A program made the position numbers and the translations under genes. The notes under the pieces were generated by a model. That model was not told the origin of the DNA, ran no database searches, and worked only from the letters and a program-made list of their open reading frames with translations. DNA of 44,842 bases, from the NCBI GenBank assembly GCA_018816185.1, contig JAHIWI010000366.1:1-44842 (forward strand), given 5' to 3'. Source of the DNA: Bacillota bacterium. GTDB lineage: Bacteria > Bacillota > Bacilli > Bacillales_A > Planococcaceae. Below, piece by piece: positions 25,771-41,859 of the stretch; position 1 is the first letter of the stretch; each line of letters begins with the position of its first letter.

Positions 25771-25857
25771 ATATTCGCGTCCATGTGGTAGAAACTATTC
25801 CAAATATTCACTACAATTGTATGAATAAATGGACCCTTCCAATCAGACGTAGATCTG
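25771..25857 (+). repeat. Hairpin element copy 1, truncated by the IS21-like end
   Basis: It contains the conserved flank ATATTCGCG, a terminal-repeat variant TCCATGTG, the box ACTACAATTGTAT and the left hairpin arm CCCTTCCAATCAGACGTAGA. The expected right arm is replaced by the IS21-type terminus starting at 25859. Confidence 0.8.
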
Positions 25858-25858
25858 T

Positions 25859-26285
25859 TGTAACCGCTAAAATAAAGTGAACAGTTTTCGCTCATTTCAA
25901 ATGAACACTTTTTGTCCAATCAATCCTTCCTGTAAACTAGTATTATCTGTTTGTAGGAGGAAGCATATGGAGGAAAAACGATTGTTATATATAGAGGTAC
26001 ATCAGCAGAAGAAGCAAGGATTGAGAATCTCTCAGATTTCAAAAAGGACAAAACTAACAAGAACAACGATCTATAAATATCTTGCTCTAGACTTTGAGGA
26101 AGCAATTGAAGAGTTTGATCACACTAGTAGGAAAAAGTAACTCGACGAATACCAGGATTGGATTGTCAATTGGCTAAGAGAGTATCCCTCTTTGAGTGGA
26201 GCGCAGATATATGATTGGCTACAAGAGAAGTCTCCAGATATTAATATAGTGTAAACGCTAAAATAAAATTGACAGTTTCCGCTAA
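25859..26285 (+). mobile_element. IS21-family remnant bounded by two same-direction left-end-like sequences
   Basis: TGTAACCGCTAAAATAAAGT begins at 25859, and a near copy, TGTAAACGCTAAAATAAAAT, begins at 26250. Both continue with ACAGTTT-CGCT. They lie in the same orientation, so the second is not the inverted right end; it looks like the left end of another copy that cut into the first. Between them is the 5' part of an istA-like gene. No istB and no inverted right end are present, so the element cannot move on its own. Confidence 0.7.
25967..26254 (+). pseudogene. Truncated IS21-type transposase (istA) with an internal stop
   Basis: The start at 25967 has GGAGG upstream. The product begins MEEKRLLYIEVHQQKKQGLR, followed by an HTH-like stretch ISQISKRTKLTRTTIYKYLA. 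An in-frame TAA at 26138-26140 interrupts it. Reading through, the frame continues LDEYQDWIVNWLREYPSLSG to 26254, where the second IS end cuts it off. Only about 95 of the usual 400-500 codons remain and no catalytic DDE core is present. Confidence 0.78.
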
Positions 26286-26356
26286 GATACTTTCTACACT
26301 TTCGCCAAATAGAATCAACCTTCTAAAATATTCGTGTCCCTGTGTTTGTATTCGCA

Positions 26357-26500
26357 TCCCTGTGTTAGAAACTAATCAAAATATTCACTACAATTGTATA
26401 AAGAAAATGGCCCTTCCAATCAGGAGTAGATCTGATAGTAAGGGCCGTTTGTATGAAATCTCAAGAAATGGAATAGTCAGTATTGTATCTATCACAGGGA
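26357..26500 (+). repeat. Hairpin element copy 2, complete
   Basis: This is a 144-nt unit from TCCCTGTG (26357) to CACAGGGA (26493-26500). It has the box ACTACAATTGTATAAAG, hairpin GGCCCTTCCAATCAG...CTGATAGTAAGGGCC (26409-26446), and the tail GTTTGTATGAAATCTCAAGA. An extra partial left end (TCCCTGTG at about 26337) sits directly upstream. It is followed at once by the 3' end of a RAYT pseudogene. Confidence 0.88.
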
Positions 26501-26504
26501 AAAT

Positions 26505-26976
26505 CTAAAACTCTAGTAGTGTATCCGTACCATCAACATGTGGATCCTCCTCAACTAGTTGTCGATAGGTGAGGCAATAATGACAATAACTTTGATTCGT
26601 TTTCTCATAAGGTGGTGGTAGGAATTCCTTCAATAGTTCTCGATTTTAAAAAAGAAGGAGTGGGTAGTGACTCATCCCAATACAGTGGAAAGGAACTGTA
26701 TGGATAGAGTTCTAGACGTTCGACCATAGGAAGTGTCGTATCAATTGGATTACGATGGATGTAACTACTAACTACTAACTACTAACTACTAACTACTAAC
26801 TACTAATACCCCTAGTCTACTATCAACTTCCTTGGTAAAATAACATTTTTGATAAATACGTCCAATATGGTGATAACGTTTTGAATAGGAAGTACTGAAG
26901 CGTTTGTTGATGAGTACCATAATTTAAGGAATCTCTTACAGGCTTGATAAAACGTGGTAGTGATTGGACATGAAAC
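26505..26976 (-). pseudogene. Degenerate RAYT (REP-associated Y1 transposase), 5'-truncated copy
   Basis: Parallel to the RAYT at 28125-28732 over its C-terminal three quarters. It is cut off upstream at the MSNHYH motif, where the next hairpin element begins. Defects include a one-base loss after HYHV, a net five-base loss upstream of the IMVLINKRF segment, and a 7-bp repeat expansion at 26762-26803 that breaks the frame. It retains the base that is missing from the other copy (ATGGTACTC, reading MVL). Clearly inactive. Confidence 0.85.
26762..26803. repeat. Six tandem copies of a 7-bp unit (TAACTAC)
   Basis: Six perfect copies lie inside the RAYT pseudogene. The corresponding site in the other RAYT copy (about 28381-28400) has only one and a half imperfect units. 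The unit is not a multiple of three and so destroys the frame. Slippage expansion after inactivation is the simplest reading. Confidence 0.9.
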
Positions 26977-26988
26977 ATTTAATTCGCA

Positions 26989-27131
26989 TCCCTGTGTAAG
27001 AAACCAATCAAAATATTCACTACAATTGCATAAAAAAGCGGCCCTTTCAATCAGATGTTAGTCTGATAGGAAGGGCCGTTTGAATGAAAACACAAGAAAT
27101 GGAATTGTCAGTATTGTATCGGACACAGGGA
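26989..27131 (+). repeat. Hairpin element copy 3, with RAYT 3' tail
   Basis: A complete 143-nt copy, TCCCTGTG (26989) to CACAGGGA (27124-27131), with box ACTACAATTGCATAAA and hairpin about 27039-27078. It is followed by about 45 bases that match the 3' end of the RAYT gene (stop complement CTAAAACC, then GTACCATCAACATGTGG). Confidence 0.88.
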
Positions 27132-27180
27132 GAGTCTAAAACCCAAGTGTATACGTACCATCAACATGTGGATATTTTGG

Positions 27181-27262
27181 TGCCTCCAATCAGATGTCGA
27201 TTTTTTAGGAAGATCAATTTGTATGAAAAACTAATATTCCCGACCCTGTGAAAGAAACTAAA
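27181..27262 (+). repeat. Degenerate hairpin-element fragment
   Basis: Pieces of the family are visible: CCTCCAATCAGATGTCGAT, AGGAAGATCAATTTGTATGA, then a left end ACCCTGTGAAAGAAACTA. These look like the right half of one copy joined to the left end of another. Confidence 0.6.
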
Positions 27263-27672
27263 ATATGTGATTTATAGCTGCCATAAATTTTCAATACTTT
27301 AGACCAGATTAGTTTCTCAGTGTGGAAAAAAGAGCAACATACAAATGTAATAGTATAATGCTTATTCATTCCACTATCAGTTACTGAAAGGGTACTGGAA
27401 AAGCAGTTTATTCCGATAATAAATGTATGTGGTCTTGCGCCTGCATTGGTTACAGAGAGCATATCGAATGTAGTAATCAAGTTTCACTTCTTCGTTTACA
27501 ATTTGCGGGGTGCATCGACAAACTCTTTGCTTATTAAACATAAAATCATTCCTTTACTTTAATTTAAGCTTATGAAAAGCTGTTACTAGTAAATTTGTCA
27601 ATACGCTTTAAATAAAAAATGTAAGAATTTTGTTACCGTCAACCCCAATTGAACATTTTTAAAATATTCGCG
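27263..27672. other. Unassigned segment in the repeat island
   Basis: A minus-strand frame from 27480 to 27214 (88 codons, TTG start, beginning LITTFDMLSVTNAGARPHTF) is the only ORF of note. No family is recognised, it overlaps element debris at its 3' end and its promoter is unclear. It may be a fragment of a lost gene. The rest shows no structure. Confidence 0.25.
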
Positions 27673-27814
27673 TCCCTGTGACAGAAACTAATCAAAATAT
27701 TCACTACAAATGTATAGAAAATGGCCCATCCAATCAATTGTTAATCTTAAAGGGAGGGGCGTTTGTATAAAAACTTAAGAAATGGAATAGTCAGTTTTGT
27801 ATCGGTCACAGGGA
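27673..27814 (+). repeat. Hairpin element copy 4, with RAYT 3' tail
   Basis: A 142-nt copy from TCCCTGTGACAG (27673) to GTCACAGGGA (ending 27814). Its hairpin is decayed (CCATCCAATCAATTG...AGGGAGGGGCG). It is again followed by RAYT 3' sequence (CCGTACCTTCAACATGTG). Confidence 0.85.
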
Positions 27815-27865
27815 GAGTCCAAAACCCTTATGTATCCGTACCTTCAACATGTGAATCTTCCTCAT

Positions 27866-28024
27866 CTAGTAAATTTCTAAGTGTAGAACTTCATTAACAA
27901 AATCTTCTTTAATCCAATGAATACTTTCACTCTTTTTGAAAATTGTTACACACTCTTGAATATCAGACAGCAAATCGTCTTCAGTTTTTAATTCTATTTT
28001 ATTGGTTGAGTTATCGAGTAGAGC
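27866..28024 (-). pseudogene. C-terminal fragment of an unknown gene
   Basis: Read on the minus strand, an open frame of about 53 codons (ALLDNSTNKIELKTEDDLLS..., ending VLHLEIY and TAG at 27866-27868) has natural codon usage. It has no start, because it abuts the truncated hairpin element at 28025. It is probably the end of a gene cut by rearrangement. No family recognised. Confidence 0.45.
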
Positions 28025-28120
28025 AAATGGCCATTCCAATCAGGAATTGATCTGATAGGAAGAGCCGTTTATATGAAATCTCAAGAAATGGAATAGTCAG
28101 TATTGTATCTATCACAGGGA
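28025..28120 (+). repeat. Hairpin element copy 5, left-truncated, adjoining RAYT
   Basis: It keeps the hairpin (GGCCATTCCAATCAGG...CTGATAGGAAGAGCC), the tail and CACAGGGA (28113-28120) but lacks the left terminus and box. The RAYT stop codon complement lies five bases further on. Confidence 0.85.
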
Positions 28121-28124
28121 AAGT

Positions 28125-28732
28125 CTAAAACTCTAGTAGTGTATCCGTACCATCAACATTTGGATCTTCTTCTACTAGTTGTCGATAGGTGAGGCAATAA
28201 TTACAATAACTTTGATTCGTTTTCTCATAAGGTGGTGGTAGGAATTCCTTCAATAGTTCTCGATTAAAAAAAGATGGAGTAGGTAGTGACTCATCCCAAT
28301 ATACTGGAAAGGAACTGTATGGATAGAGTTCCAGACGGTTTACCATAGGCACTTTTGGATCAAATGGATTTCGATGGATGTAACTGCTAACTACTAATAA
28401 CCCTAGTCTACTATCAATTTCCTTGGCAAAATAACGTTTCTGATAAATACGTCCAATATGGTGATAACGTTTTGAATAGGAAGTACTAAAGCGTTTGTTG
28501 ATGAGTCCATATTATTAGCCAAGTGATCTCTTACAGGCTTGATAAGAATGTGGTAGTGATTGGTCATGAAACAATAAGCAAGAATTGTAAATGGAAATTT
28601 AATATGTACATGTTGAAAGGCTTGTAAGAGCTCAAACATATCTTCTTTGGTACCGAAAATGTTTTGACGATTATTACCGTGCATAATGACATGGTAATAT
28701 ACATTCGGATTAAATTCTCTCTTCCTCGTCAT
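28125..28732 (-). pseudogene. RAYT: REP-associated Y1/HUH transposase with a single-base frameshift
   Basis: The start is taken as MTRKREFNPNVYYHVIMHGN. The HUH-type motif is in AYCFMTNHYHILIKP (His-Tyr-His). After LANNMD the frame shifts; in the next frame it resumes LINKRFSTSYSKRYHHIGRI, then YQKRYFAKEIDSRLGLLVVS, SYIHRNP, PMVNRLELYPYSSFPVYWD and ends DGTDTLLEF. Comparison with the other copy shows one base missing between 28506 and 28507. Apart from that it is nearly intact, about 200 codons. Such proteins nick and mobilise REP hairpins; the surrounding elements are its likely substrates. No strong ribosome site is seen. Confidence 0.88.
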
Positions 28733-28745
28733 GTAATTAAACCAT

Positions 28746-28994
28746 TCATCTCGTAATAGCAGCATGCACGAGAGAACCTTGAATTTTCCATTCCAGTGCT
28801 TCCTCGATTGCTAAATCTGACACGGTATCTTCACTATCAACATCGGAAATGGTACGAGCCAATCGCAGGATTTTTATTGTAGACCTACTGCTTAATTTCT
28901 CCTTAAAACAAATTTCTCCCACCCTTAGTAATTGGGTATCTGTAAATTTTACCTTTTCCTCAAACAACTTGATTGGAACAATGGTATTAATCAA
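28746..28994 (-). pseudogene. Fragment resembling the C-terminal domain of ComM/YifB (Mg-chelatase-like)
   Basis: This 82-codon frame contains FTDTQLLRVGEICFKEKLSS and RSTIKILRLARTISDVDSED, then LAIEEALEWKIQ. That resembles the helical C-terminal domain of ComM/YifB (leader-like LSxRxxxxILRVARTIADL...LAEAL). The ATPase part is absent, and the apparent ATG lies at the edge of a hairpin element. It lies directly upstream of the RAYT gene in the same direction. It is most likely a captured or rearranged gene remnant. Confidence 0.5.
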
Positions 28995-28995
28995 T

Positions 28996-29100
28996 CAGGT
29001 ACCTGTGTGAAAAACTATTCAGATTATGAACTACAATTGAATAAAAAGCTATTAGAATCCAGCAAACAAGACGTTGTTGGATTCTTTTTTTGTATAAAGA
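28996..29100 (+). repeat. Divergent hairpin element copy 6, different stem
   Basis: It has the left end ACCTGTGTGAAAAACTATTC and the box ACTACAATTGAATAAAA. The hairpin (AGAATCCA at 29054-29061 with TGGATTCT at 29078-29085, T-rich tail) has an unrelated sequence. The box and layout are kept while the stem is changed. Confidence 0.65.
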
Positions 29101-29198
29101 TGTAATCGTAGTTATTTATCGTAAATTTTAGGTGCCACCCAGAAAAGTAGGAAAAGGACAGTGAATGTAACTAGTATTCACTTGTACTGGTCTACTAG

Positions 29199-29295
29199 AA
29201 ACTAATCAAAATATTCACTACAATTGTATAAAGAAAATGGCCAATCCAATCAGTTATAGATCTGACTGGATTGGCGGTTTGTATCTGTCACAGGG
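29199..29295 (+). repeat. Hairpin element copy 7, internally deleted
   Basis: It runs from AGAAACTAATCAAAATATTC through box ACTACAATTGTATAAAG and hairpin GGCCAATCCAATCAG...CTGACTGGATTGGC to CTGTCACAGGG. About 45 bases of the usual tail are missing. It lies in tandem with copy 8. Confidence 0.82.
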
Positions 29296-29307
29296 TTAAT
29301 ATTCACT

Positions 29308-29448
29308 TCCCTGTAACAGATACTAATTAAAATATTTACTACAAATGTATAAAGAAATTAGCCCTTCCAATCAGATGTAGATCTGATTGGAAAGACCATT
29401 TGTATGAAAACTCAAGAATTGGAATAGTCAGTTTTGTATCAGTCCCAG
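29308..29448 (+). repeat. Hairpin element copy 8
   Basis: A full-length copy from TCCCTGTAACAG to GTCCCAGG, with box ACTACAAATGTATAAAG and hairpin CCCTTCCAATCAGATGTAGA...CTGATTGGAAAG. The copy 7-copy 8 junction is itself a near-perfect inverted repeat (GTATCTGTCACAGGG / CCCTGTAACAGATAC). Confidence 0.85.
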
Positions 29449-29773
29449 GTAGCTCAAAATCAAGTCCCAAGAAAAGTACTTTACTCACAACACAGCTTTT
29501 GGAATATTCATAAACTACTTATCGTGTTCGACTTGAGTTGACAATTCACATAATAAGACAAGATTATAGAATTATATCGAGAAATTTTGAATATTATTTT
29601 GGTGGAGGTTCGGTGAATTTAAAAGGGAAAAATTTTGATAATTTAGTCATATGAAATAATCAAGAACCGAAAAGTTGATTTAATTACGTAGTTAATATAA
29701 CAGTACTTATTTGTAATATTTTGTTGTATAGTGTTATTGTTGGTAATATTTCAAGGAATAGGAGAATGGTATA
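29449..29773. other. Region upstream of the Abi-C-like gene
   Basis: No gene. It is AT-rich; possible promoter elements precede the start (TTGTAA at about 29710, TATAGT at about 29728), and AATAGGAGAA provides the ribosome site for 29774. Confidence 0.35.
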
Positions 29774-30598
29774 ATGGGATTCTTAGGATTAATAGAAATT
29801 GATGTTGACCGACTTCAATATGAGGTGATTTCTGACCAGTCTCGTTTAAAGTTAACTCGACTCATTCGAAGTCTTTGTAATTGTGAAGATAGTAATCTCC
29901 AACTTTTAAGACAGAATCGTTATGTAAATCTAGCTAATAACGTACTAGGAAAGCCTATTTATGTGTTGGAATCTGATGATATGGGAGATTATCAAATGGC
30001 TGAACATTCTTGGCATTTCGGGGAAGTTGAACTTATTATGAGAAGACCGAATACTACAAAGCTGATTGAAATACTGGCAGATATGATTCAAGATCGTCTG
30101 TTAGACGTTGATGAAGTTAATGGAATCCTAAGCGAAGATGGAAGTTCTGTGCAATTTGAAATGAATCAAATGAATACAGTGTCAGTACATGTTACACCTA
30201 TTGAACAAATTGATGAAGTGGATGACTCGGAAGAACATCCCAATATCAGAAAGCTAATTCTAAGGATGGAAAATGCTCTGTCTAATGAAGACTATTCAGG
30301 GGTATTACATGCTAGTGCTTCAGTATTTGAAACTCTAGCAAAAGATGTAATTGGCTTAGCATCTGTAGAAAATCAGACCCTTGCAGGTTTCTTTCAAGGT
30401 TATCGAAATCGCTCCAATCTCCCAGAGTCCGTATTAGATTATATTCTTGAAATATACAGAAAAAGAAATATGGAACCGTTGGCTGGTCATGGTAGCACGC
30501 TACCACCTAGTATCGACCGTGAAGAAGCAATTGTACTGGCTGAGATGACAAAAACCTTTGTACGCCTTGAAAGGAAGCTTGCTATGCCCCAAGTTTAA
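29774..30598 (+). CDS. Abi-C-like protein, possible abortive-infection factor
   Basis: The protein has 274 residues, is soluble and has no signal peptide. The C-terminal domain (about 158-272), with LILRMENALSNEDYSGVLHA, ASVFETLAKDVIG, then RKRNMEPLAGHGSTLPPSID and REEAIVLAEMTKTFVRL, resembles the abortive-infection C-terminus (AbiJ-type, HEPN-like helices) that ends several phage-defence proteins. The N-terminal half is unrecognised. The gene is flanked by hairpin elements on both sides and lies just before a toxin-immunity pair, which is a defence-like context. The functional claim is inference; the domain match was judged by eye. Confidence 0.6.
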   Translation: MGFLGLIEIDVDRLQYEVISDQSRLKLTRLIRSLCNCEDSNLQLLRQNRYVNLANNVLGKPIYVLESDDMGDYQMAEHSWHFGEVELIMRRPNTTKLIEILADMIQDRLLDVDEVNGILSEDGSSVQFEMNQMNTVSVHVTPIEQIDEVDDSEEHPNIRKLILRMENALSNEDYSGVLHASASVFETLAKDVIGLASVENQTLAGFFQGYRNRSNLPESVLDYILEIYRKRNMEPLAGHGSTLPPSIDREEAIVLAEMTKTFVRLERKLAMPQV

Positions 30599-30610
30599 AA
30601 AAAAATCGAA

Positions 30611-30724
30611 TACACATTGTATTAGCAAAAGCACGTCCAATCATTTTTAGAACTGATTGGACGGGTCGTTTCTATGAAAACATAAGAAATGGAATAGTTA
30701 TTATTTCTTCATTCCCCAGGGAGA
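30611..30724 (+). repeat. Hairpin element copy 9, diverged
   Basis: The hairpin CGTCCAATCA (30634-30643) with TGATTGGACG (30654-30663) is followed by the family tail (GTTTCTATGAAAACATAAGAAATGG split over 30667-30692) and CCCAGGGAG. It lies just after the Abi-C-like gene and may serve as its 3' hairpin. Confidence 0.75.
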
Positions 30725-30938: not shown

Positions 30939-31265
30939 ATGGATTATGGAAGAGAAGTTCTAACTCGAACAGATATAGATTTGGATGCAACTGATGTTTT
31001 TGGAAGAACTAATTTACAACGTATGGAGGAAGGATTATCTCCTCTTGTAAATGGAGAGCCAATTGAACTTCACCATATTGGACAAGAAATGGATGGTCCT
31101 CTTGCAGAATTGACTCCTTTGGAACATCGAGGACCTGGAAACTACTCTGTTCTCCATGAAGTGGGGAAGGAATCAGAAATAAACCGTACCCTATTTAATG
31201 CGGAAAAAGAAGCTCACTGGAAAGCTAGAGCAGAAGAAATTAAATTAGAAAGAGGAATTATCTGA
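30939..31265 (+). CDS. Orphan LHH-type (HNH/EndoVII) nuclease toxin cartridge
   Basis: The product has 108 residues and corresponds to a complete C-terminal toxin domain: GREVLTRTDIDLDATDVFGR, ELHHIGQEMDGPLAELTPLE, then HRGPGNYSVLHE and AEKEAHWKARAEE. The Leu-His-His and later His residues define the LHH family of the HNH/endonuclease VII superfamily, found at the tips of secreted polymorphic toxins such as LXG proteins. The delivery domain is missing and a stop precedes the ATG by four codons. GAGGGA lies too close to the ATG to be an ideal ribosome site, so expression is uncertain. The immunity gene overlaps its stop by one base. Confidence 0.85.
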   Translation: MDYGREVLTRTDIDLDATDVFGRTNLQRMEEGLSPLVNGEPIELHHIGQEMDGPLAELTPLEHRGPGNYSVLHEVGKESEINRTLFNAEKEAHWKARAEEIKLERGII

Positions 31266-31654
31266 TGTCATTAAAAGAAATGTTAACAAAACAAAATGCC
31301 CTAACTACAGGAGGAGTCGCTGATCGTTTAATTTCAGAGGCAGAGGAGCAATTAGGTTTTAGCTTTCCTTCGTCCTATCAAGATATATTGAAAAATGTAG
31401 GATCAGTCTCAATAAATGGCCATGAAGTTTTTGGACTTGGAATAGATGGGAATTTAAATGTTGTAACTTCTACTTTAAAGGAAAGAGAGTTAAGTGAAGT
31501 AGATTTAGCAGACTATATAGTAATTGAAAATCTCGGAAATGAAGGTCTATTAATTCTTTTAGATGAACAGGGAATAGTTTATCAGTATACTGAAGGTAGG
31601 TTCAAACAAATCTCATTAAATATTGAAAATTACTTTATTCAAGATATTTTATAA
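31265..31654 (+). CDS. SMI1/KNR4 (SUKH) family immunity protein
   Basis: The protein has 129 residues. The SUKH signature is visible: ISEAEEQLGFSFPSSYQDIL, then VGSVSINGHEVFGLGIDGNL and YIVIENLGNEGLLILLDEQG. Members are immunity proteins that bind nuclease toxins. The start codon overlaps the toxin stop (TGATG), so the two are coupled as in toxin-immunity loci. An inverted-repeat terminator follows at 31699. Neutralisation of the LHH nuclease is inferred from position. Confidence 0.9.
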   Translation: MSLKEMLTKQNALTTGGVADRLISEAEEQLGFSFPSSYQDILKNVGSVSINGHEVFGLGIDGNLNVVTSTLKERELSEVDLADYIVIENLGNEGLLILLDEQGIVYQYTEGRFKQISLNIENYFIQDIL

Positions 31655-39689: not shown

Positions 39690-39760
39690 ACCACTCACTC
39701 CAAATGTACAAAAAAAGACCCTTCCAATCAGTTATATAACTGATTGGAAGGACCGTTATT
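39690..39760 (+). repeat. Hairpin element copy 10, outside the island
   Basis: A perfect 32-nt palindrome (39720-39751; arm CCTTCCAATCAGTTAT) has the same arm sequence as the island copies, with family flanks CTCACTCCAAATGTACAAAA and GACCGTTATTTTGA. It shows that the family occurs at single intergenic sites about 9 kb from the RAYT genes. Confidence 0.82.
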
Positions 39761-39873
39761 TTGAAGATGCTTCACATTCTATACACAACAATTGTATGTT
39801 GAATGTGCCGTATCCAGGAACCGTAAGGGTTCAGGCTAGGTTTTTCTATTTTTATCTGTAAATAATTGTATTT

Positions 39874-41859
39874 CTAATCTTTTAGCGCTTTAACAATTTG
39901 TTCTTCTAAGGCAGGTGCCATTGTTTCGGAATATATCGTGCTAATATGATGTCGATCACGATAAACTAATACATTGCCAATGACAGAATGGCAAGTTTCA
40001 TCGTCGCAGAAATACTCCGACATATCAGCAAAGTACACATTGTCTGATATATTTTCAGTGTTCTCCCATGGGGGGATTGCGGATAAAGCATCTTCCCTTG
40101 GTGATGAACATTGGTCAGCACCATTTTCTTCCACACATAATGGGATATCTACGTTCATCCTTGGGTTATCACGGACGGCAAACACCTTCGTAATTCCTTG
40201 AAGTTCTTTCCATTTGCTAAGATATCCTTCTGGTATTGTATCTTCAATGTTTATGTTAGCTGTAGTAAATACTAAGTCAGGAGGATTCGACATCAATGGC
40301 TCCATCAAATTGTCATTCCACTCCATACACGATTCAGTTAGTAACCCATCAAAATCATCATTACTAAACCTGCATGCGTCTTTAATGTATACATCGATTT
40401 GTAAATTTAGATTTTCAGACATTTTTTCTAATGCTGGGAACCAGTGACCGGAATGAGAACCACCAACAAGTGCAATCGTGTAATCTGGATTTTCTAGCTC
40501 ACCCAAAGAACACGTTGTCACTTTAGAAGAAGTCCCAGAAGACGAACAGTTCTCTTTACCGTAGAACGACGGTAGGTGACCTTTCGCTTCAATTGCTGAC
40601 GGGATCGGTTTTATTTTTGAACTTGGAGTAATATTATTTGATATGGAACGGGCTCCAGGATGGTCAACAAGTGAATATTCATCGAGTCGAGCTTGAGACT
40701 GATCTACATAAACCATCCACGAAACTCCGACGATTACAACTGGTAGTATAAAAGCCACCAAAATACCGGACATTTTTATTTTAGATTGTTTTACATTAAT
40801 TTTCCTCACTGGTGTTTCGAGAAGTTTGATTGACAATATCGATAAAACGAATGTACTTAGTAAAATGATAATTCCAGCTAAATTGGATACGGATTCTTTT
40901 CCAAAGTAGGCGTAATAGAAAATTAAAATCGGCCAGTGCCACAAATAAAACCCGTAAGAAATACTACCGAAATATAAAAATGGTCTTGAACCTAGAATTC
41001 TTTCTACTCCAAAATGGCTGCCAGTTTCAGCAGCAATAATAACTAACATCACACCACTTGTTGGTAATAAAGCTGCATAGCCAGGAAATACATTGGATAC
41101 AGGCAAAAGAATCCCAGTAAATGCGATGATAGCCAATCCAAGCCAGCCTATCACAAAACTTACGAACTTATGAAACCTTAAATAAGGGATTAAGAGCGCC
41201 AGTATTCCCCCTAAACTAAACTCCCAAGCTCGAGCGAATGTATCAAAATATGCCCACGGCTGATTATCGTTGGTTATGTGAACTGAATACGAGATAGAAA
41301 CGATGAAAATGAAGGAAAGTACAGATAAAAGCGTCTTCCGTACAGGTGTTTTTAATATCTTCTTTGCAATAAAATAAATCACACTAATAACTAGTGGCCA
41401 TGTTATATAAAATTGCCCCTGAATAGAAAGTGCCCAAAAGTGCTGAAACGGACTGGCTACATTATTTTGACCTAGATAATCTACCGCGTTATTTGCCAAG
41501 TGCCAATTCTGAAAGTAGAATGCAGAAGAGAAGACTTCAGGAATGGTTTCGACCCACCGTGATTTTGGCAAGATAAGAATAGAAAACACTGTTGTAAATA
41601 AAATGACAATAAAAGCTATGGGGAATAGTCTTTTTCCCAATCCTAATAAATATTCACTAAAATTGATCCGTCCCTGCCTATCCATCCTTGACAATAAAGA
41701 GGTTGTAATTAAATAGCCTGATACAATAAAAAACACATCTACTCCGCCGGAAACGGAGCCTAACCAAATATGATAAACTGCGACCAGTAACGCGGCAACT
41801 GCCCTTATACCCTCTAATTCAGGACGAAACTTTTTTTCCTGTGTTCTCAAATCAATCAA
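39874..41859 (-). CDS. Acyltransferase-3/SGNH O-acetyltransferase (OatA-like)
   Basis: The protein has 661 residues. The AT3 domain begins FRPELEGIRAVAALLVAVYH and has about ten membrane helices (to about 375). The extracellular SGNH domain (about 430-661) has the nucleophile block ALVGGSHSGHWFP (Ser near 467) and the DRHH catalytic block (Asp about 633, His about 636). Such proteins O-acetylate peptidoglycan or secreted polysaccharide; OatA gives lysozyme resistance. TTG start with GGAG about 9 nt upstream. It is monocistronic. Whether muramic acid or capsule is the acceptor is open; the nearby capsule locus fits either. Confidence 0.92.
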   Translation of the reverse strand: MIDLRTQEKKFRPELEGIRAVAALLVAVYHIWLGSVSGGVDVFFIVSGYLITTSLLSRMDRQGRINFSEYLLGLGKRLFPIAFIVILFTTVFSILILPKSRWVETIPEVFSSAFYFQNWHLANNAVDYLGQNNVASPFQHFWALSIQGQFYITWPLVISVIYFIAKKILKTPVRKTLLSVLSFIFIVSISYSVHITNDNQPWAYFDTFARAWEFSLGGILALLIPYLRFHKFVSFVIGWLGLAIIAFTGILLPVSNVFPGYAALLPTSGVMLVIIAAETGSHFGVERILGSRPFLYFGSISYGFYLWHWPILIFYYAYFGKESVSNLAGIIILLSTFVLSILSIKLLETPVRKINVKQSKIKMSGILVAFILPVVIVGVSWMVYVDQSQARLDEYSLVDHPGARSISNNITPSSKIKPIPSAIEAKGHLPSFYGKENCSSSGTSSKVTTCSLGELENPDYTIALVGGSHSGHWFPALEKMSENLNLQIDVYIKDACRFSNDDFDGLLTESCMEWNDNLMEPLMSNPPDLVFTTANINIEDTIPEGYLSKWKELQGITKVFAVRDNPRMNVDIPLCVEENGADQCSSPREDALSAIPPWENTENISDNVYFADMSEYFCDDETCHSVIGNVLVYRDRHHISTIYSETMAPALEEQIVKALKD

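Follow-up and report, generated by a model that had tools for sequence, protein, structure and literature searches.

Hairpin elements that accompany RAYT genes in the Planococcaceae combine one sharp end with one variable end, in several genomes carry pieces of the RAYT gene that begin close to the termini of neighbouring elements, face the replication fork in a single orientation and cluster around RAYT loci. We consider one-ended transposition of the hairpin on the lagging-strand template by an HUH (Y1) transposase of the RAYT/TIRYT type to be the best explanation, and a fairly probable one.

The window, i.e. the whole stretch of DNA that was analysed, is an entire contig of 44.8 kb from a fragmented MAG of 2.8 Mb that is 82% complete, and every element and RAYT match found by BLAST in this MAG falls on it. 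It holds about nine clear element copies and several halves in a single shared orientation (Table 1). The preliminary description had named four elements, each followed at a constant distance by the 3' end of a RAYT gene, and had counted two long copies and two stubs. All four elements are present, the minus-strand stop codon lies exactly 5 bp after CACAGGG in 4/4 (at the third element it is mutated to TGG), and the attached pieces, which share one direction, measure about 870, 473, 52 and 41 bp. The piece of about 870 bp consists of a RAYT pseudogene and a ComM/YifB-like remnant, whose 5' edge adjoins the terminus of element 29003. The RAYT pieces share about 80-94% DNA identity with one another and all RAYT copies in the window are broken; the longest is 69-73% identical, in two frames, to the RAYT of P. 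halocryophilus. The junction between element 26990-27130 and the neighbouring 473-bp RAYT fragment reads GATGCGAATTAAA followed directly by TGTTTCATG. Within this fragment a 7-bp repeat (AACTACT, 26762-26806) is expanded relative to the longer copy. The half element at 25776 is followed by an HTH ORF (25877-26140) with similar sequence on both sides (GTAACCGCTAAAATAAA and GTAAACGCTAAAATAAA, within 25857-26275), which looks like an insertion-sequence remnant. At 30939-31654 an ORF with an LHH nuclease domain precedes a SUKH-family ORF, a likely toxin/immunity pair.

Table 1. Elements, RAYT pieces and ComM-like remnant in the window, in order of position.
Feature	Positions	Strand	Evidence
Partial element	25776-25857	-	BLAST
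Full element after the 473-bp RAYT fragment	26358-26499	-	Model R1, E=3e-21
473-bp RAYT fragment, truncated at codon ~54 (HUH motif)	26505-26977	-	86% identity to the longest copy; 5' edge at the terminus of the preceding element
Full element; terminus (to 26978) adjoins RAYT fragment 26505-26977	26990-27130	-	Model R1, E=2e-22
41-bp RAYT 3' stub, joined to element 26990-27130	27136-27176	-	Sequence comparison
Two half elements	27178-27261	-	Repeat families D4 and D8
Full element	27674-27813	-	Model R1, E=4e-22
52-bp RAYT 3' stub, joined to element 27674-27813	27819-27870	-	Sequence comparison
Element after the longest RAYT copy, without distal part	28024-28119	-	Repeat search, BLAST
RAYT (Y1/HUH transposase) pseudogene, longest copy, with frameshifts and stops	28125-28733	-	Y1_Tnp, E=5e-8 on 28403-28765
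ComM/YifB-like AAA+ ATPase, C-terminal remnant directly upstream of RAYT	28746-28994	-	Mg_chelatase_C, E=4.7e-9; 75% identity to the intact G005 gene
Element of the related CACAGGTACC type	29003-29142	-	Model R1, E=5e-7; this end type recurs in other species of the genus
Element, one half reduced	29195-29305	-	Repeat search, model R1
Element without attached RAYT piece	29309-29450	-	Model R1, E=3e-12
Diverged element, immediately beyond the stop of ORF 29774-30598	30600-30705	-	BLAST
Degenerate element(s) between convergent genes	39695-39887	-	BLAST 39695-39765; model match 39754-39887

The full element is about 141 bp long, with the ends CCCTGTG and CACAGGG and a variable central hairpin. Elements of the window fold more stably than shuffled DNA (z -2.8 to -6.4). 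From an alignment of 26 elements RNAalifold recovered only 7 outer pairs, without covariation, and the central hairpins appear in single-sequence folds only. The end pattern matches 28 of 46 Planococcus genomes and its reversed control none, and a search of Rfam gave no match. A terminator scan of the window found three sites, no excess over shuffles, hence we claim no terminator role for the window elements.

The two ends of the element behave differently. The shared sharp end is CACAGGG[GA]CGCGATTTT; in 91 copies the conservation past CAGGG (R-CGCG-ATTTT) drops from 0.96 bit at +8 to 0.38 at +9 and 0.16 at +10, and it is gone 9-10 nt past CAGGG. The opposite, left end is fuzzy: conservation fades gradually in the 91 copies, and inspection by eye showed no conserved motif there. 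Similarity reached more than 40 nt past the element in 16 of 534 aligned within-genome pairs, 15 times upstream only and once downstream only; for this lone pair, of type 2, a neighbouring copy is suspected as the cause. Captured DNA is not always RAYT, as one pair in genome G220 has about 250 bp of other upstream sequence in common.

Same-direction units of an element and a RAYT 3' end recur in the window, as first described, and in relatives as well, and such repeated units are indeed unlike a single-copy domesticated gene. In G220 an intact locus of ComM-like gene, RAYT and element is followed by a 549-bp copy that runs from RAYT codon 88 to the stop and includes the element; this tandem copy is 99.45% identical to its source, already 5'-truncated and joined with 2-nt microhomology. 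In P. halocryophilus a tandem of this type measures 272 bp and is 91% identical, further units with RAYT pieces occur in G038 and G218, and in G226 a 71-nt RAYT stub with its element lies upstream of the ComM-like gene, the right junction being comparable with P. halocryophilus and the left side different. In six cases from six genomes (G220, G038, G218, P. halocryophilus, the window and G005) the RAYT fragment starts 8-13 nt past the end of the preceding element; the ComM remnant of the window, at a similar offset from element 29003, makes a seventh. Three of the six direct junctions (window, G220 and P. halocryophilus) sit in an array around the source. Since the near-identical G220 unit is already 5'-truncated and truncated ends lie at preceding element termini in several species, sequence comparison suggests that the RAYT pieces were probably truncated when they were copied.

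A RAYT relative (E<=1e-8) was found in 125 of 250 genomes of the family. The intact proteins of relatives carry an HUH motif (NHYH) and a Y motif (YIHRNP) and match Y1_Tnp with E=2e-17. Several Planococcus genomes and one same-genus genome (G005) have a ComM-like AAA+ gene directly before RAYT. Among loci whose RAYT shares at least 73% identity with the P. halocryophilus protein, a ComM-like sequence, partly as a remnant, ends 0-34 bp upstream of RAYT in 16 of 16 (L057-L072). Where an element follows, the gap from the RAYT stop is a few to about 100 bp, and 223 bp in one case; some genomes have insertions or toxin-antitoxin genes after RAYT instead. The question of an intact master copy, raised in the preliminary description, is thus answered in relatives by an intact operon of ComM-like AAA+ ATPase, RAYT and element, but not in the 82%-complete MAG, which yielded no intact RAYT; as this assembly is incomplete and fragmented, a master copy may lie elsewhere in the same genome. 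A literature search found no link of RAYT to ComM/YifB. Far more distant RAYTs (38% identity), in Priestia abyssalis and Bacillus sp. FJAT-14578 (L042, L044), likewise have a ComM-like gene about 59 bp upstream, and the pairing may therefore be old or have arisen twice. Just downstream of the G220 RAYT, two elements enclose genes for a MazE-like antitoxin and a Fic/Doc toxin (L087, 10519-11168), and antitoxin-like ORFs similarly follow RAYT in G168, G038 and Jeotgalibacillus.

Replication direction was set with dnaA as the origin in the 12 genomes with mapped dnaA. All 155 copies re-scored there with two profiles are head-on to the fork, including those beside head-on genes; the regions had been chosen for holding elements and many copies are orthologous, hence the 155 are not independent events. 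A first list from a model search had 94 of 96 copies head-on, one of the two exceptions (G118) scoring equally on both strands. Nearby ORFs of at least 100 aa number 325 co-directional and 161 head-on, and within 150 bp of a gene stop 64 elements lie at co-directional and 19 at head-on genes. Separate chromosome sites keep the head-on rule, for example in G038 at -0.98 to -0.89, -0.25 and +0.61 to +0.71 Mb. Every copy in the window has the direction of RAYT; the + strand there shows a mostly positive GC skew, which agrees with the rule and is no test of it. An integron-like cassette array, suggested by co-oriented elements that often follow genes, including toxin-antitoxin and restriction-like ones, was set aside, as orientation tracks replication and not genes. 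The block by which G168 and G226 differ beside RAYT, considered as a cassette, resembles an insertion sequence.

In G220 the 11 type-1 copies listed are all found no more than 7 kb from RAYT, against 0.2 expected within 30 kb, and 6/9 in G232, 6/10 in G168 and 13/25 in G038 lie within 30 kb. The other replichore has a second focus around +0.6 to +0.8 Mb; a related type-2 element forms dense arrays there in accessory regions, and tblastn found no RAYT. Elements remote from RAYT, which the preliminary description would have counted against its reading if found in relatives that lack RAYT genes, do occur in the same genomes on the other replichore, far from any detected RAYT, yet elements are concentrated at RAYT loci. 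The type-2 arrays are co-oriented, with about 20 copies in 55 kb of G220 (C1:603456-658869, L169-L171), and are found also in G168, G051, G216, G091, G106 and G064. By their sequences, the accessory genes among them look like restriction-modification, toxin-antitoxin and other defence genes.

In the mechanism that we propose, the hairpin is non-autonomous and depends on a RAYT/TIRYT-type HUH (Y1) transposase, which mobilises it in single-stranded form from the lagging-strand template. The enzyme would cut precisely at one terminus, immediately outside CACAGGG[GA]CGCGATTTT, the presumed 5' end on the active strand. The lagging-strand template reads AAAATCGCG[TC]CCCTGTG first, which makes the fixed end the likely 5' end, as in one-ended IS91/Helitron events. 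The other boundary would be chosen loosely, such that copies made from the RAYT-side element would often run into the RAYT gene, and into the ComM-like gene, giving units of an element and a variable RAYT 3' piece. New units would land preferentially at or near the terminus of an existing element and in one orientation to the fork, a landing rule that would build directional clusters, later subject to decay. An HUH enzyme that acts on single-stranded DNA of the lagging strand would account for the fixed end, the loose end, flank capture, short overlaps and the strand-specific orientation. The RAYT would be the cutting agent, as its linkage and the chemistry of its family suggest; single-stranded DNA of the lagging strand would be its substrate, and the ComM-like partner might have some role.

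Tandem, local and same-direction copies are also predicted by replication slippage or unequal exchange. In slippage or break repair at the long palindrome, stalling at the hairpin base and re-annealing upstream at microhomology would yield tandem duplications without any transposase; the elements are strong hairpins, and head-to-tail tandem units, microhomology of 0-2 nt, local clusters and uniform direction all fit. Such a process does not readily explain why tandem and isolated copies of different species end at one outside terminus (+9/+10), why copies 0.2-1.6 Mb away from RAYT, also on the other replichore, are still head-on, or why the G226 unit lies upstream of the ComM-like gene. We hold slippage to be unlikely, and what probability it keeps it owes mainly to the lack of an empty site. 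Local flank matching and one genome search found no clean empty site or target-site pattern, which leaves transposition itself a proposal.

The preliminary description had instead proposed that whole units of gene and element were amplified and trimmed afterwards, leaving a ladder of decay states. Window pieces do vary in length and decay, and the element that comes after the toxin-antitoxin genes continues into 45 nt of one upstream sequence in G168 and into 104 nt of it in G220, a difference that could be due to later trimming. This order of events is disfavoured by the G220 unit, truncated already at 99.45% identity, and by truncated ends that coincide with element termini in six genomes, exactly at the preceding termini in several species; no tandem array of full gene-and-element units was seen at the loci examined. 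Differing junctions had been named as evidence against amplified units, and the upstream junctions do differ among copies, while the other side is fixed. Amplification followed by trimming is thus improbable. Recombination between direct repeats multiplies repeat-bounded segments and preserves their direction, and unequal crossing-over between elements could in this way have multiplied an existing truncated segment of RAYT piece and element. The first truncated junction would then be unexplained, the lengths of the pieces and their upstream boundaries differ within the window array (454, 57 and 43-46 nt), and isolated copies elsewhere are unaccounted for, which leaves unequal crossing-over highly improbable.

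The nearest known kind is the TIRYT/TIRtron. In the passages of Di Nocera et al. 2013 (PMC3733652) that describe it, a RAYT-like tyrosine transposase has long terminal inverted repeats (TIRs), not GTAG REPs, and TIRs occur also as dimers and clusters elsewhere in the genome; these passages mention no ComM-like operon partner, strict replication orientation, fixed and variable end or gene-fragment units. Psychrobacillus and Sporosarcina relatives have TIRs inverted on both sides of RAYT (arms of 36-42 bp), and of the two sides only the 3' one regularly has an element in the ComM-linked clade. TnpA_Y1 class 2/RAYT is defined by HUH and the Y-motif Y---NP in a Y1_Tnp domain (PMC6006769), and the intact relatives belong here by NHYH, YIHRNP and Y1_Tnp. 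With the NCBIfam model REP_Tyr_transpos (NF047646) the G220 RAYT scored 67.4 bits, below the curated cut-off of 80 bits. TnpA_Y1 subclass 2.1 (RAYT group 1) has NHVH or NH[YF]H, YIELNP or Y[IV]HLNP, a conserved C-terminal extension and, in some members, an HTH; here the HUH motif fits, YIHRNP is one residue off, subclass 2.8 is also close by motif, and Pfam found no HTH domain in the RAYT of 200 aa.

REPINs/REPtrons with RAYT groups 2-3 (subclasses 2.2, 2.5) likewise consist of hairpin doublets that are non-autonomous, accompany a Y1 HUH gene and lie mostly in intergenic DNA downstream of genes. REPs and REPINs have a GTAG foot and many dispersed copies in both orientations, whereas here no GTAG foot was noted, the ends are CCCTGTG/CACAGGG, the element is about 141 bp long with a variable central hairpin, and at most a few tens of copies cluster at RAYT, strictly head-on. 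IS200/IS605 elements (IS608, ISDra2) share Y1 HUH chemistry and the proposed lagging-strand targeting, but here no tnpB was seen, the element is a long palindrome in place of small subterminal hairpins, and YIHRNP differs from the Y---Q motif of subclass 1.1. In Helraiser and IS91 one end is fixed and the other can be bypassed, with overlaps of 2 nt (PMC4778049). The constant end and the variable end with flank capture agree with them as a pattern, and an HUH enzyme, 2-nt overlaps and a putative helicase partner are further likenesses; their helicase is fused (PMC4778049), whereas the ComM-like ATPase is encoded by a separate gene, the enzyme here has a single tyrosine (Y1), and circles and empty sites are not demonstrated. 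A bacterial Helitron-like system, in which a Y1 HUH transposase and a ComM-like AAA+ helicase from the same operon would move hairpin ends one-endedly on the lagging-strand template, capture gene pieces and whole genes and build directional arrays in accessory and defence regions, is a bolder reading that we regard as doubtful.

The dissemination of repeats by RAYTs is described, in a passage of PMC8266576, as poorly understood. With one terminus mapped in natural copies, the other end variable, the strand rule unbroken in the final scored set and junctions that look newly made, the step that the RAYT performs can be tested directly in an environmental genus that grows in culture. The ComM-like partner in the operon, present at least as a remnant in 16/16 loci of the clade, would be a new lead on RAYT function, and one-ended, uniformly oriented copying hints at a route by which such repeats spread.
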